DNA of 64,000 bases, taken from the NCBI GenBank assembly GCA_937868725.1, contig CALMMQ010000064.1, positions 1-64,000 on the forward strand, read 5' to 3'. The translations under genes and the position numbers were made by a program. This document shows, in pieces, positions 54,315 to 59,998 of the stretch. Each line of letters opens with the position of its first letter. Position 1 is the first letter of the stretch. The notes below the pieces were generated by a model. That model worked only from the letters and a program-made list of their open reading frames with translations, did not search any database and was not told the DNA's origin. The stretch comes from an uncultured Pleomorphomonas sp. Its GTDB lineage: Bacteria; Pseudomonadota; Alphaproteobacteria; Rhizobiales; Pleomorphomonadaceae.

Positions 54315-54360
54315 GAGTGCATCTTTATGGCGAAGCCACTATAGCTGGTTGTCGAGAAAG
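54315..54360 (+). promoter_or_regulatory. 46-bp conserved box upstream of paralogue 1
   Basis: Starts GAGTGCATC and ends GGTTGTCGAGAAAG. It matches 56153-56198 at 41 of 46 positions by eye, and both lie 122-123 bp before the ATG. It includes a TATAGC that could be a -10. Probable shared promoter or operator, duplicated with the gene. Confidence 0.55.
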
Positions 54361-54482: not shown

Positions 54483-56072
54483 ATGAGATCGAGCTGGCTC
54501 GCCGGCCTTCTTGTCGCCGCGTTCGTATCCGTTGCGCATGCAGCAGCGGTTCAGCCACAGTCGCAGGAGCAGTCCCCAACCAACGACAACTTTGCCAACG
54601 CCGCAGTGCTGGCCAACACCGCCAATGCCACCATGGGTTCTCTCTACTATGCGACCCATGAAGTGGGCGAGGCCCGGTACTCCAAGACCTCGCTTCGCAA
54701 TACCGTCTGGTACAAGTTCACCGCCACCCAGACCGGCCGGGCGGTGGCCCTGCTGACCACCGCCAGCACGGATCAGGTTCCGCTGCAGCTGCAGGCCTTT
54801 ACCGGTACCACCGTTGCCAGTCTGACGCGTCTTGGCAGAACTCAGATCGGCACTGGGTTCAATCCCTTCAATGCAGGCGGACTGGCTTTCAACACCGTGG
54901 CCGGCAACACCTACTACCTGCAGGTCGACAGCGACGCTCAGGCAGATGTCTTCTTCAAGAGCGACTTCCTGATCGCTGCCCAGCAGTTTGGTGCGTCAGG
55001 CGGTCTCGGCATGCTCACCTATCGCCCCGCCTTCATCCTGGATGGGCAACGGGAATCCCTCGACGTATTGGTGGCCAACGGCCTCACCAGCAAGGCCACT
55101 CTACGGTCGAGCATCGCCGGCATTACCACCAAACTGTCGGTAACGCCGCGATCCAAGACATTGACCGTTGGGCAAACGGCTTGGCTCATGGTCAATGACG
55201 AGGACAACTCGGTCAGCGGTGCTGCAACCGGCAAGCTGCAACTCACCGCCGTCGATGCCTCGACGTCGATCCCGCTCGGCACTCGCTCCGTCCCCCTGAC
55301 GTTGATTGGCGGCCCTTTCTCCAGTGACCACGGCCTGCTCGTGCGCTTTGCCGTTCCAGTCCAGGGTATCATCCGATCGCACCGCTTCTCGTCCACCGTC
55401 AACATCAAGAACATCTCGTCGTCGACAGCCGAACGCTGCCATTTCATTTCCGGTCCTCATGCCGTTTCGCTGATCTGGAACGAAGACCTCCCCGACGGCA
55501 AGCGGGGGAGCACCAACGCGATGTTCTCGCTGGCGAGCGGCAGTACCCGGGCGTTTACCGTCTCGGCGGCAACCAACGACTCCCTCCCCAGCAAGGATAA
55601 CTGGGTCACGCTCTCCTGCTCGAATTATTTCGGCAAAGCCGAGCCCGATTGGCTGGAGGTCATGGGAGCCGTGTCTCAGCTGGGTTACTACGCTGCGGTC
55701 AAGATGAACGTCCCGGCAGCCAACGCCTTCCAACAAATCGCCGTTCCCGATTTCGGTACCAGGAAAGTGGTGGTGGCCATCACCAACATCGGGCGCTATT
55801 CAGGCCCCCTCCAGATCCAGGCCGTTTCAAGCAACAGCACCGTCTCCATGGACTATATGTGCGTTTCCAATAGCCGAGGCACCTGCATCGACGAAACAGA
55901 CCCCTACACAGTCCATACCGATCTCGCCAATGGCGAAACCGGTTACTTGGCGATCACGGTCACCCGCCAGAGTGCGACCGACAGCGGTCTGATCTATGTT
56001 CACGTCGTTCACGACGAAGATCTTTTCGGCACCTATATGGCGGGTGCCGACGGCTTCGAAGTGATGGAGTAG
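54483..56072 (+). CDS. secreted PPC-like four-cysteine protein, paralogue 1 (unknown function)
   Basis: A 529-residue exported protein of no family I can name with confidence. A signal peptide (SSWLAGLLVAAFVSVAHAA) is cleaved near 22. Residues ~30-170 look like a PPC (pre-peptidase C-terminal) beta-sandwich: NDNFANAAVL, TVWYKFTATQTGRAVALLTT, GNTYYLQVDSD. The C-terminal half has beta-rich segments with four cysteines (AERCHF, LSCSNY, MDYMC, GTCID) shared by the two neighbours. It ends GADGFEVME. AGGGGG precedes the ATG at 54483. Base composition is less GC-rich than neighbours. Probably periplasmic or extracellular. Confidence 0.8.
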   Translation: MRSSWLAGLLVAAFVSVAHAAAVQPQSQEQSPTNDNFANAAVLANTANATMGSLYYATHEVGEARYSKTSLRNTVWYKFTATQTGRAVALLTTASTDQVPLQLQAFTGTTVASLTRLGRTQIGTGFNPFNAGGLAFNTVAGNTYYLQVDSDAQADVFFKSDFLIAAQQFGASGGLGMLTYRPAFILDGQRESLDVLVANGLTSKATLRSSIAGITTKLSVTPRSKTLTVGQTAWLMVNDEDNSVSGAATGKLQLTAVDASTSIPLGTRSVPLTLIGGPFSSDHGLLVRFAVPVQGIIRSHRFSSTVNIKNISSSTAERCHFISGPHAVSLIWNEDLPDGKRGSTNAMFSLASGSTRAFTVSAATNDSLPSKDNWVTLSCSNYFGKAEPDWLEVMGAVSQLGYYAAVKMNVPAANAFQQIAVPDFGTRKVVVAITNIGRYSGPLQIQAVSSNSTVSMDYMCVSNSRGTCIDETDPYTVHTDLANGETGYLAITVTRQSATDSGLIYVHVVHDEDLFGTYMAGADGFEVME

Positions 56073-56152
56073 CAACCCCGGGGAGCAGGCATAGGCAGCC
56101 AGACGCAGCCGTCTTCGCGTTATTGTTGCGTCATCGTTTTTGCAACTTTACA

Positions 56153-56198
56153 GAGTGCACTTTAATGGCGAAACCATTATAGCTGGTTGTCGAGAAAG
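56153..56198 (+). promoter_or_regulatory. 46-bp conserved box upstream of paralogue 2
   Basis: Second copy of the box at 54315-54360, differing at about five positions and placed at the same distance from its gene. Confidence 0.55.
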
Positions 56199-56319
56199 CA
56201 TCTCGCAGCTCAGCCACTGGTCAAGCCGGGGTGCACACATCGTGGGTAGGTACTGAATTCATCCGCGGCCGTCGCACCGCCTTCGTCGCGACGCCGCCAA
56301 GGCATTTCAGGGGGAAAGC

Positions 56320-57915
56320 ATGAGATCAAGCTGGCTCGCCGGCCTTCTTGTTGCCGCGTTCGTATCCGTCGCGCATGCCGCAGTTGTTCAGCCACAATCG
56401 CAGGACTTCTCGCCGCACAACGATGACTTTGCCAATGCCCAGGTGCTCCCCGACAGCACCAATGCCACCATGGGCAACCTGTATAACGCAACCAATGAGA
56501 GAGGCGAAGTCCGGTACGCCAAAGGGTCGTACGGGTCAACCGTCTGGTACAAGTTCACCGCCAGCCGCACGGGTCGGGCCGTGGTCGAGCTGGCACCGAT
56601 CAAATGGCTAAGTGCGCCCCTACAGATACAGGCTTTTTCCGGACCCACTATCGCCAGTCTGAAATGCCTAGCCAAGGCTAAGGTGTCCGAACCCAATGTT
56701 CCGTTGACTGGATCGGTCGCTTTCGACACCGTCGCCGGAACCACCTATTACCTGCAAGTCGACATCAACTCCGACGGTTCTGATCATAACAGCAAGACCG
56801 ATTTCCTGATCGCCATGCAGCAGTTCGGCACGTCGGGCGGCTTTGGCATGCTCACCTTGCAGCCGGCGATTCTCCGCGACGAGACCTACGATCAGTACTT
56901 CATGCTGATTGCCAATGGCTTCAAGACCGCTGCCAAGCTCAAGCTGAACATGCTACGCGGCGGCCGCCAGATGGAAGCCTGGACGCCATTTACGACCTTT
57001 GCCTCCGGCCAGTCGGCCTGGCTGAACGTCATGGACAGCAACGGTCATACGGTAAACGACGCCGTGCCTGGTCGGTTGCAAATCGTCGCCAACGACGCTT
57101 CGACGTCCGCTATTCTGGGCACCCGTACCATCGATTTCGTACTCGTGCCCAACAGCGGTCACAACTTGGCGAGCTTGACAACGCGATTTGCCATGTCCGG
57201 CCAAGGCGTTGCCAGATCAAGCCGCTTTTCGTCGAAAGTCGTAATCAAGAATAGTTCAAACATCGCCGCCAATTTCTGCCAATTTTCCTCGAATGACTTT
57301 ACTATGACCCCGAGATGGCGGGAAGTGCTTGCCGACGGCAAGCTTGGCAAGTTCAACGCCCCGTTCAGTCTGGCCGCCGGTGCGACCAGGAAGTTTATCG
57401 TTTCGGCTACCTCGCTCGACGACGGCGACTCGACCTCATATTCCAAGGTCAAGCCGAGCTGCTCCAACTATACGCCCCCCGATTCATACCTGACACTCAT
57501 GAACAGCATGGAAGGCGACCCCCAGCTCGGTCACTACGCGGCTGTGAAGATTGATATTCCGGCCGCCAATGACTTCCGTCAGATTTCCATGGCCGGCATG
57601 CAGGCCAAGATGGTTCGCATAGCCGTCACCAACACCGGGGAATACACGGGCCATTTCACCGTCAGCGCCTTAGGGGCCAGCCAGTACATGTGGGTGAAGG
57701 CCTATTGCACGGCCCGAAAGGATGGTTCGTGCATCAGCGCCTTCAGCACTCGCAGTGCCGATCTCGACCTCAATAACGGCGAAACCGGCTACGTGACCCT
57801 GTCCGTCTACCGGACGTCGACAACCGAAGAGGGTGAAATCGATGTTTCCGTCAGACGCGCCGAACAATCGTCATATGGCGCAGCCGGCATCAGCGGCTTC
57901 GAAATGACGAACTAG
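56320..57915 (+). CDS. secreted PPC-like four-cysteine protein, paralogue 2 (unknown function)
   Basis: A 531-residue paralogue of the upstream gene. The first 21 residues are identical to paralogue 1 and the DNA of that stretch differs at only about four bases. The mature part has diverged much more. The PPC-like region (NDDFANAQVL, TVWYKFTASRTGRAVVEL, GTTYYLQVDI) and the four cysteines (ANFCQF, PSCSNY, VKAYC, GSCIS) are kept. It ends GISGFEMTN. AGGGGGAAA precedes the ATG. Codon use is AT-richer than in flanking housekeeping genes. A terminator hairpin follows. Confidence 0.8.
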   Translation: MRSSWLAGLLVAAFVSVAHAAVVQPQSQDFSPHNDDFANAQVLPDSTNATMGNLYNATNERGEVRYAKGSYGSTVWYKFTASRTGRAVVELAPIKWLSAPLQIQAFSGPTIASLKCLAKAKVSEPNVPLTGSVAFDTVAGTTYYLQVDINSDGSDHNSKTDFLIAMQQFGTSGGFGMLTLQPAILRDETYDQYFMLIANGFKTAAKLKLNMLRGGRQMEAWTPFTTFASGQSAWLNVMDSNGHTVNDAVPGRLQIVANDASTSAILGTRTIDFVLVPNSGHNLASLTTRFAMSGQGVARSSRFSSKVVIKNSSNIAANFCQFSSNDFTMTPRWREVLADGKLGKFNAPFSLAAGATRKFIVSATSLDDGDSTSYSKVKPSCSNYTPPDSYLTLMNSMEGDPQLGHYAAVKIDIPAANDFRQISMAGMQAKMVRIAVTNTGEYTGHFTVSALGASQYMWVKAYCTARKDGSCISAFSTRSADLDLNNGETGYVTLSVYRTSTTEEGEIDVSVRRAEQSSYGAAGISGFEMTN

Positions 57916-57926
57916 TCACCGGCCCC

Positions 57927-57956
57927 GCCGCCCGCCAGCCCCCTCTGGCGGACGGC
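57927..57956 (+). terminator. terminator of paralogue 2
   Basis: GCCGCCCGCCAG (57927-57938) pairs with CTGGCGGACGGC (57945-57956), 11 of 12. The sequence closely resembles the terminator at 54245-54277. Confidence 0.75.
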
Positions 57957-58159
57957 GCGTACTTCTGCCGCAATATTTGGCAGTCTTTTTTGCCTGCCCC
58001 CTTGCAGGACCTTTCGACATGACTAAACTTGCCGGCGAAGACCTTCGCGGTATCGCCGCAAGTTACTTCGCGTCGTTTTAAATATCGCTTCATATTCAGG
58101 TTATCGATCGCTGTCGCACCGAGCATTCCGTTGCGAAGCCTTATCCCCGGGGGGACAAC

Positions 58160-59740
58160 ATGAAATCGAACTGGCTCGCGGGCCTGATCGTTGCCGCGTC
58201 CGTGTCCGCAGCGCATGCGGCAACATTCGTGTCGCAGACGCAAGAGTACTCGCCGCCCAACGACAACTTCGCCCAGGCGCAGGCCTTGCCTGACAGCACC
58301 TATGCCACCATGGGCAACATCTATTACGCCACGCGCGAACTCGGTGAGGCCAAGTACGCCACCGCCTCGCTGGGGCGGACCGTCTGGTACAAGTTCACCG
58401 CCACCAAGACCGGTCGGGCGGTCGCTCTGCTGACCACCGCCGACATGGACACGGCACCACTGCAGATGCAGGCGTTCTCCGGCTCCGCCATCGCCAGCCT
58501 CACCCGTCTTGCCAAGGTGCAGGTGGCCGGCACCGACGCCGCCAACTCCGGCTCGCTGGCCTTCAGCACCGTCGCCGGCACCACCTACTACCTGCAGGTC
58601 GACAGCGCCGCCCAGACATACAGCCTCGACGGCGACTTCCTGATCGCCATCCAGCAGTTCGGCGCCTCGGGCGGCCTTGCCGCCCTCACCTATCGCCCGG
58701 CGCTCATCGAGGATCAATCCTCGGACAAGTTCAAGGTCTTGGTGGCCAACGGCTTCAAGAGCAAGGCCGATCTGCAGTCGGGCATTTCCAGCATCGGCGC
58801 CCAGTTGGACGTGACCTCGACCGCCACGACCTTCGCCGCCGGCCAGACCGGCTGGTTCACCGTCGCCGACAAGTACGGCTCGACGATCACCGGCATTGCC
58901 TCCGGCAACCTGCAGATCACCGCCTTCAGCACGGCGACGTCCGCCTACATGGGCATCCGCGCCATTCCCCTCAAGCTGTTCCAGCGCGACTACAACTACC
59001 ACCCCAGCCTGCTGGTCCGCTTTGCCAAGCCGGTCTAGGGCGTTGCCCGTTCGCAGCGCTTTTCGTCCACCGTCAACATCAAGAACACCTCGGCGACAAC
59101 CGCTCAGTACTGCCGCTTCATTGAAAATAATGATGCCTATGCGCTGATCTGGAACGAGAACCTCGCCACCGGCAAGCTTGGCAGCACCAATGCCCTGTTC
59201 ACGCTGGCCGGCGGCGCCACCAAGAAATTCACCGTCTCGGCAGCGACCGAGAGCCGCTATTCTGACTACAACAAGATCCGGGTCGACTGCTCCAACTACT
59301 ACGCCACGATCAACAACGACTATCTGGCGTCCATGGGAGCTACCGCGCAGTTTGGCAAGTATGCTGCGGTCAGCATGGCCTTCCCAGCCGCCAACACCTT
59401 CCAGCAGATCGCCATTCCCGACTTCAACACCAAGAAGGTGGTTGCGGCCATCACCAACACCGGCGATTACTCCGGCTATTTCAAGGTCTACGCCAGTTCG
59501 ACCAACTACAACGTTTCGATGGACTCGATCTGTGCTTCCACCAGCAAGGGGAGCTGCATCGGTACGGCCAATTCGTCCACCATCTACACAGACCTCGCCA
59601 ACGGCGAAACCGGCTATGTAACGCTGACGATCAACCGCAAGAACGCCACCGACGTCGGCCTGATCTATGTCGACGTCAGCCGCAGCGACGATCCGCAGTC
59701 TTCCGACGCCGGCTATGCGGGCTTCGAAGTGACCGAATAA
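58160..59740 (+). pseudogene. secreted PPC-like four-cysteine protein, paralogue 3, interrupted by an amber codon
   Basis: The frame runs 527 codons with one in-frame TAG at 59036-59038 (codon 293). Both neighbours have a Gln codon there (VQG and GQG before xxARS/IRS), so a single CAG-to-TAG change explains it. The frame after the stop stays open and conserved: RFSSTVNIKNTS, AQYCRF, VDCSNY, MDSIC, GSCIG, ending YAGFEVTE. The signal peptide (NWLAGLIVAASVSAAHAA) and PPC-like region are intact. As written, only a 292-residue N-terminal product with the PPC-like part would be made. Base composition is closer to the host genome than paralogues 1 and 2. A recent nonsense mutation, readthrough or a sequencing error are all possible. 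Confidence 0.82.
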
Positions 59741-59831: not shown

Positions 59832-59998
59832 GCGAACGTTCTCAGGGCGGGGTGAAATTCCCCACCGGCGGTGTTTGCGCCCTGCGCATCAGCCCGCGAG
59901 CGCCCGTTGCCGAAGCCGTCAGGCCGACGCGACGGGGTCAGCAGATCCGGTTGGATTCCGGAGCCGACGGTATAGTCCGGATGGTAGAGAACGCTGAC
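59832..59998 (+). ncRNA. FMN riboswitch (RFN element)
   Basis: The conserved RFN blocks are in order: CTCAGGGCGGGGTGAAATTC, CCCACCGGCGGT, AGCCCGCGAGCG, GTCAGCAGATCCGGT, ATTCCGGAGCCGACGGT and ATAGTCCGGATGGTAGAGA. It lies 92 bp before ribD and should shut the riboflavin operon off when FMN is plentiful. Confidence 0.95.

Follow-up and report, generated by a model that had tools for sequence, protein, structure and literature searches.

What is encoded by three neighbouring genes for related exported proteins in a 64,000-nucleotide stretch of an uncultured Pleomorphomonas sp. (contig CALMMQ010000064.1; the whole stretch is termed the window hereafter), and do these genes constitute a system? An initial annotation, made from the sequence alone, had proposed the array as a candidate for an undescribed system. 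Our analysis indicates that the array is a real, sparse and unnamed protein family, and not a system. As for its products, we tentatively favour, with a confidence that falls a little short of even, their interpretation as exported, non-enzymatic, disulfide-braced multidomain binders of ∼54–55 kDa (copies 1 and 2).

All features of the array lie on the forward strand. Copy 1 (54483–56072) and copy 2 (56320–57915) encode 529 and 531 amino acids, respectively, and the full frame of the third paralogue spans 58160–59740. Pairwise identities of 47% (copies 1 and 2), 56% (copies 1 and 3) and 48% (copies 2 and 3) are far beyond chance and, together with the coordinates, bear out the annotated arrangement of three adjacent same-strand paralogues sharing one layout. 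Each reading frame opens with a signal peptide of the Sec type whose end, AHA/A, was read from the sequence without a predictor, continues with a PPC-like module, a middle region (D2) and a four-cysteine module (D3-D4), and has the GFE(V/M) tail, so that the signal peptide, the matched cysteines and the tail listed at the outset are all present in all three. In copy 1, the PPC-like module (54549–55007, residues 23–175) and D2 (55008–55361, residues 176–293) were delimited by eye, and D3-D4 (55362–56069) carries the cysteines C319/C379 and C460/C468, which correspond to residues 320/381 and 463/471 in copy 2 and to 318/377 and 458/466 in the frame of copy 3. Copy 2 possesses an additional cysteine, C116; as it is confined to this copy (some relatives having extra cysteines of their own), a fifth conserved cysteine was rejected. 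No second clear transmembrane segment was seen beyond the signal peptide, the top 19-residue hydropathy being 0.87–1.17. Identity between the copies varied by region, from 73–95% in the signal peptide and 59–64% in the PPC-like module to the lowest values, 35–45% in D2 and, for copy 2, 37–41% in D4.

The description of three genes of about 530 codons holds for copies 1 and 2 and fails for copy 3, which is cut at codon 293 by an in-frame TAG (59036–59038), leaving only two intact genes in the array. The 5′ part of copy 3 (58160–59038) encodes the signal peptide, the PPC-like module and D2 and, because the stop just precedes the cysteine half, the product as written is a protein of 292 amino acids without any cysteine. 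The remaining 3′ part (59039–59740) is open throughout and contains D3-D4 with all four cysteines; no in-frame ATG, GTG or TTG occurs in it before 59333, and this next start lies downstream of both D3 cysteines. Beyond the stop, the ratios of nonsynonymous to synonymous substitution (dN/dS) were 0.58 (D3) and 0.31 (D4) against copy 1 and 0.40 (D3) and 0.62 (D4) against copy 2. As these fall within the range of 0.20–0.70 measured before the stop, copy 3 gives no indication of prolonged decay. The stop may represent a recent inactivation, a variant or a sequence error, or else copy 3 may make a two-domain version of the protein.

The D3-D4 module matched no Pfam or NCBIfam family at cut-off and no PDB sequence. 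Its signature, as found in the array, consists of C1 and C2 in D3 and C3-x(7-8)-C4 in D4 within a framework of N, G and F residues, and the columns that remained invariant over two orders were N, C, G and F. Among 28 matched rows, the cysteines were retained in every row covering the respective position (C1 26/26, C2 27/27, C3 24/24 and C4 24/24), a count in which 11 rows had also built the profile and in which G16b, G136, L109 and L114 had no row. In the C-terminal half of four relatives lacking D4, C1 and C2 are the only cysteines, C3 and C4 being absent. This joint loss of C3 and C4 with D4 is consistent with local pairs, and we infer disulfides C1–C2 in D3 and C3–C4 in D4. The earlier suggestion of two disulfides is thereby strengthened at the level of sequence, as C1 with C2 and C3 with C4 appear to behave as separate pairs across the relatives. 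The candidate reading in which D3 and D4 repeat one another was not supported (hhalign probability 0.6%, E-value (E) 0.09 over 24 columns).

A profile built from the PPC-containing family alone (A3) detected D3-D4 in two genomes of a single genus (g345) belonging to another order, with E of 1.1e-15 (G640) and 3.3e-14 (G719), and a profile to which four of these other-order carriers had been added (A4) revealed further carriers, again in G640 and G719. In these proteins, D3-D4 follows Vgb_lyase propellers (PF24684; L104, L108, L145 and L146), matrixin-like peptidases (Peptidase_M10, PF00413; L143, and L142 with an interrupted module) or, in L144, a reprolysin-like peptidase that also bears InlB-type repeats, and it stands ahead of HbpS-like domains (PF03928; L105 and L107). 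One further protein, L106, for which Pfam gave no match, is presumably a glutamic peptidase. In genome G195, the D3 half follows a Peptidase_M23 domain (L150). When family rows were compared with other-order rows by hhalign, all four cysteines were aligned at E 6.1e-5 and a probability of 65%. The g345 carriers thus share the four-cysteine module with the array but combine it with a propeller, a peptidase or an HbpS-like domain, whereas in the array it is accompanied by the PPC-like module and D2.

The annotation of the N-terminal module as PPC-like stood as to homology and failed as to the Pfam threshold. Copies 1 and 3 scored 14.1 and 16.4 bits with Pfam PPC (PF04151), under the cut-off of 25.9 bits, and copy 2 gave no match; the sub-threshold match of copy 1 covered residues 75–150 (E 0.092). 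The family profile A1, however, matched modules behind S8 catalytic domains in the related genomes G007 and G016 with E of 2.0e-13 to 7.3e-6, and four S8-attached modules scanned from among these and those of G214 were themselves under the PPC cut-off (20.7–25.5 bits) in proteins with Peptidase_S8. In an alignment of 8 family rows with 12 peptidase-attached rows (S8 and M12B, including the M12B protein of L111), both groups shared the block order ND-F-A, GE, VWY/F, L-x-x-Y/F and AG-TY. Judged by these matches, the module at the N-terminus shares homology with the PPC modules that S8 and M12B peptidases carry in related genomes. It differs from them in being N-terminal instead of C-terminal, in being unaccompanied by a peptidase, in falling below the Pfam cut-off and in lacking the DTxL and DD motifs. 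PPC-like modules were also seen in genus g39, where they start RTX-type-looking proteins (L058–L061; Pfam repeat shown for L058 only), apparently without a signal peptide, and where G158 and G263 each have two copies of such genes close together.

Searches for catalytic domains were negative, which sets the array proteins apart from the secreted peptidases that carry PPC (S8, M4, M9 and M12B). No peptidase family was found in copies 1–3 with Pfam at E up to 1, and none reached any cut-off in Pfam or NCBIfam, in agreement with the annotated lack of a peptidase domain; nor did any other catalytic family reach its cut-off in these libraries. Copy 2 alone gave a sub-cut-off match to the FAD-binding oxidase family TIGR00275 (E 0.0029, 16.5 bits versus 183.8), which is absent from copies 1 and 3, and a chance-level match to NCBIfam PmbA (E 0.041, 12.6 bits versus 438). 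TIGR00275, YibX (E 0.0054), Ntox25, DUF2846, ANT and others were rejected as candidates, all being far below their cut-offs and limited to one member each. Among 49 PDB matches of the PPC-like module none was significant, the best being to nitroreductases (E 0.034), with the metalloprotease entry 2luw at E 0.4. Searches of the open-licence literature yielded no title or abstract dealing with this architecture, and the statement that no named system has it holds for the libraries and the open-licence literature covered.

Full-length four-cysteine relatives, 28–31% identical to copy 1, occur once in G007 and four times, as two adjacent pairs, in G014; with the window's genome this amounts to 3 of the 20 genomes of the taxonomic family. 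Any match at all was found in 4 of these 20 genomes, the window's included, and none in the other 16. More distant relatives either contain D4 (G7c, G332 and G228) or lack it (G14e, a tandem pair in G16, and G136), and L109, L110 and L114 are weaker still. Relatives of about 400–440 amino acids (L022, the tandem pair of L026, and L062) share with the array proteins the signal peptide, the PPC-like module, a middle part and D3 with the first cysteine pair, but differ from them in having neither D4 nor the second pair. In the wider searches, which scored 3 to 8 candidates per genome and therefore give lower bounds outside the taxonomic family, matches were obtained in at least 10 of 397 genomes of the order (A1) and at least 7 of 385 of the class (A3), with the window's genome counted and many matches confined to a single module. 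D3-D4 itself (A4) was detected in at least 8 of the 397 order genomes and at least 3 of the 385 class genomes, and, when 309 genomes sampled from the phylum were searched, only in the window's genome among the candidates scored. A scan of genome contigs with copy 1 gave four loci, all from Bacteroidota and matching the N-terminal part. Carriage by phages or plasmids was rejected, as copy 1 had no match in those collections. In a tree that included the distant rows and carries a long-branch warning for them, the three window copies grouped together, as did G14c with G14d and G16a with G16b, each with support of 100/100, and G14a and G14b were left unresolved; local duplication has accordingly taken place at least three times.

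That the array proteins may be exported binders without enzymatic activity is suggested by the lack of any catalytic signature and by the fact that both of their recognisable modules are otherwise parts of larger secreted proteins of several domains, some of them peptidases. Binding of proteins by PPC modules provides a second reason: when isolated, the PPC modules of protease E495 bind both casein and C-phycocyanin (PMC3327674), and a collagenase segment containing PPC binds triple-helical collagen (PMC6168687). In the mechanism we propose, the proteins would be exported by the Sec route through their N-terminal signal peptide and oxidized in the periplasm, where the two local disulfides predicted from conservation and co-loss, C1–C2 in D3 and C3–C4 in D4, would form. 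The PPC-like and D3-D4 modules, related by homology to those described above, would then serve for binding or as spacers, with no catalytic domain present, and the proteins would hold on to a polymer or to the surface of a partner, whether at the cell surface, in a matrix or in the medium. Tandem duplication would have generated variants that diverged most in D2 and, in copy 2, in D4, and that may present different binding faces; these regions of lowest identity are where we would look for the ligand-facing parts.

Several observations speak against this interpretation. No known relative of D2 emerged from Pfam or NCBIfam, and a PDB sequence search returned nothing for copy 1 and D3-D4, while the family profile had a single match (E 1.4). 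The DTxL motif was present in 12/12 peptidase-attached rows of the PPC alignment versus 0/8 family rows, and the DD pair in 9/12 versus 0/8. The residues D26, D28, Y30 and Y/W65, needed for binding by the E495 modules (PMC3327674), found no firm placement in the array module, and protein binding is therefore not transferable by residue to the array proteins. Extra cysteines are also found in relatives, as a CC in D2 of G14c, G14d and G16a and as two residues in G332, and other cysteine pairings may be possible in these proteins. With regard to the acidic loop, the D of the DTxL column is kept in 3/8 family rows (copies 1 and 3 and G14a), where it is followed by three extra residues, and the distant relatives G332 and G228 have both DTALA and DD, which argues that the window clade has probably remodelled this loop of the PPC-like module and not merely lost it.

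The genomic setting bears on whether the array is part of a larger unit. As annotated, it lies between a chemoreceptor gene (sCache_2) and the riboflavin genes, where an FMN (flavin mononucleotide) riboswitch (59834–59996) precedes ribD. This riboswitch was kept in 12/12 congeneric ribD loci, the genes upstream of ribD differed from the array in all 12, and a family match was present in 0/12 of the congeneric genomes having a close ribD. In a further genome of the genus (G007, L164), a close RibD is absent, the best match being partial and 38% identical as compared with 61–68% in the 12 others. The neighbours of the full-length relatives also differ from locus to locus: those in G014 stand beside genes which we take to be of the era/rnc/acpS and purB/murI types, and that in G007 beside genes presumably of the ABC-transporter type. 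For the loci read, an operon or multi-gene system was thus rejected, and the proposal of an undescribed system was given up, as no partner gene is shared by these loci, one copy is interrupted, and the modules occur otherwise on secreted multidomain proteins. Near the second G014 pair, a gene of low third-position GC (guanine plus cytosine; 0.48) at 2281–4266 of L020 encodes a protein of 661 amino acids that we assume to be an FkbH-type HAD protein. At a distance of about 5 kb from the family member in G007, two adjacent genes (L021, 13315–14166 and 14217–15001) encode collagen-like (GXX)n proteins, the first of which matched Pfam Collagen and had CBM_5_12 just under cut-off.

Within the window, the lower GC content noted for copies 1 and 2 was confirmed (60.2% and 57.5% versus 66.6% for the window) and extends to copy 3 (62.1%), the chemoreceptor gene and ribD being at 68.7% and 75.2%; third-position GC was 75, 73 and 86% in copies 1, 2 and 3, respectively, versus 83–91% in five measured neighbours. 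Copies 1 and 2 have in common a conserved upstream block of 45 bases, located on the forward strand at 54315–54359, where it holds TGG-N5-CCA and TATA, and at 56153–56197. No such block arose in 100 shuffles, and a genome-wide search located its 31-base core at 2 sites and nowhere else; the block was not found before copy 3, nor within 400 bases of 5 relatives, and consensus promoter and terminator scans gave no clear excess over shuffles. The block at 54315–54359 is a putative promoter or regulator site and, as copies 1 and 2 share it and have nearly the same signal peptide, they are probably under the same control.

The main alternative to exported binders, unlikely though better placed than the others, is that the proteins are structural, forming or crosslinking an extracellular layer or matrix in which the modules are spacers with no specific ligand. 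This would suit a layout without a recognised enzyme, the tandem paralogy, the lack of any partner gene common to the loci read and the position of D3-D4 behind InlB-type repeats in other proteins; however, the sparse occurrence of full-length members (3/20 family genomes) is not the pattern of a layer indispensable to each cell, and no self-assembly motif was seen by eye. We regard it as distinctly less probable that the genes are lineage-specific paralogues in decay, with little function left to them: copy 3 is interrupted and 16/20 family genomes have no match, but copies 1 and 2 are intact, dN/dS between the copies is 0.44–0.53 overall, and the values beyond the copy 3 stop remain within the pre-stop range. 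Poorer still are the prospects of a role as inhibitor, decoy or partner of a secreted peptidase, in which free PPC-type proteins would compete for a peptidase acting in trans or regulate it, and for which the kin modules on S8 and M12B peptidases of related genomes might be invoked. G007, G014 and G016 have 3, 7 and 5 S8 subtilase matches and 7/14 control genomes have S8 as well, but the window's genome, in spite of its three copies, has none in a genome-wide search that covered S8 only, and a role as S8 partner is weighed down accordingly. Least probable is an exported enzyme of an unrecognised family with its active site hidden in D2 or D3-D4, since the fact that these regions match no known family above cut-off and the sub-cut-off TIGR00275 match of copy 2 are countered by invariant D3-D4 columns (N, C, G and F) that are no typical catalytic set and by the occurrence of this module beside catalytic domains.

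Returning to exported binders, it is conceivable, but on balance unlikely, that they amount to a new, alphaproteobacterial-type class in which modules of secreted hydrolases, PPC-like and four-cysteine, have been gathered into stand-alone proteins, the acidic loops of PPC remodelled, and related binders with different ligands produced by repeated local duplication, a small set of which would be displayed by a single cell. The most useful novelty lies in the undescribed four-cysteine accessory module, which is absent from the searched libraries and whose signature could help to annotate 'hypothetical' exported proteins, its carriers including metallopeptidases, propellers and HbpS-like proteins. 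The array also provides a natural case of PPC-type modules without a peptidase, in which a standalone role of PPC is testable with two intact paralogues, and the protein family merits a name.

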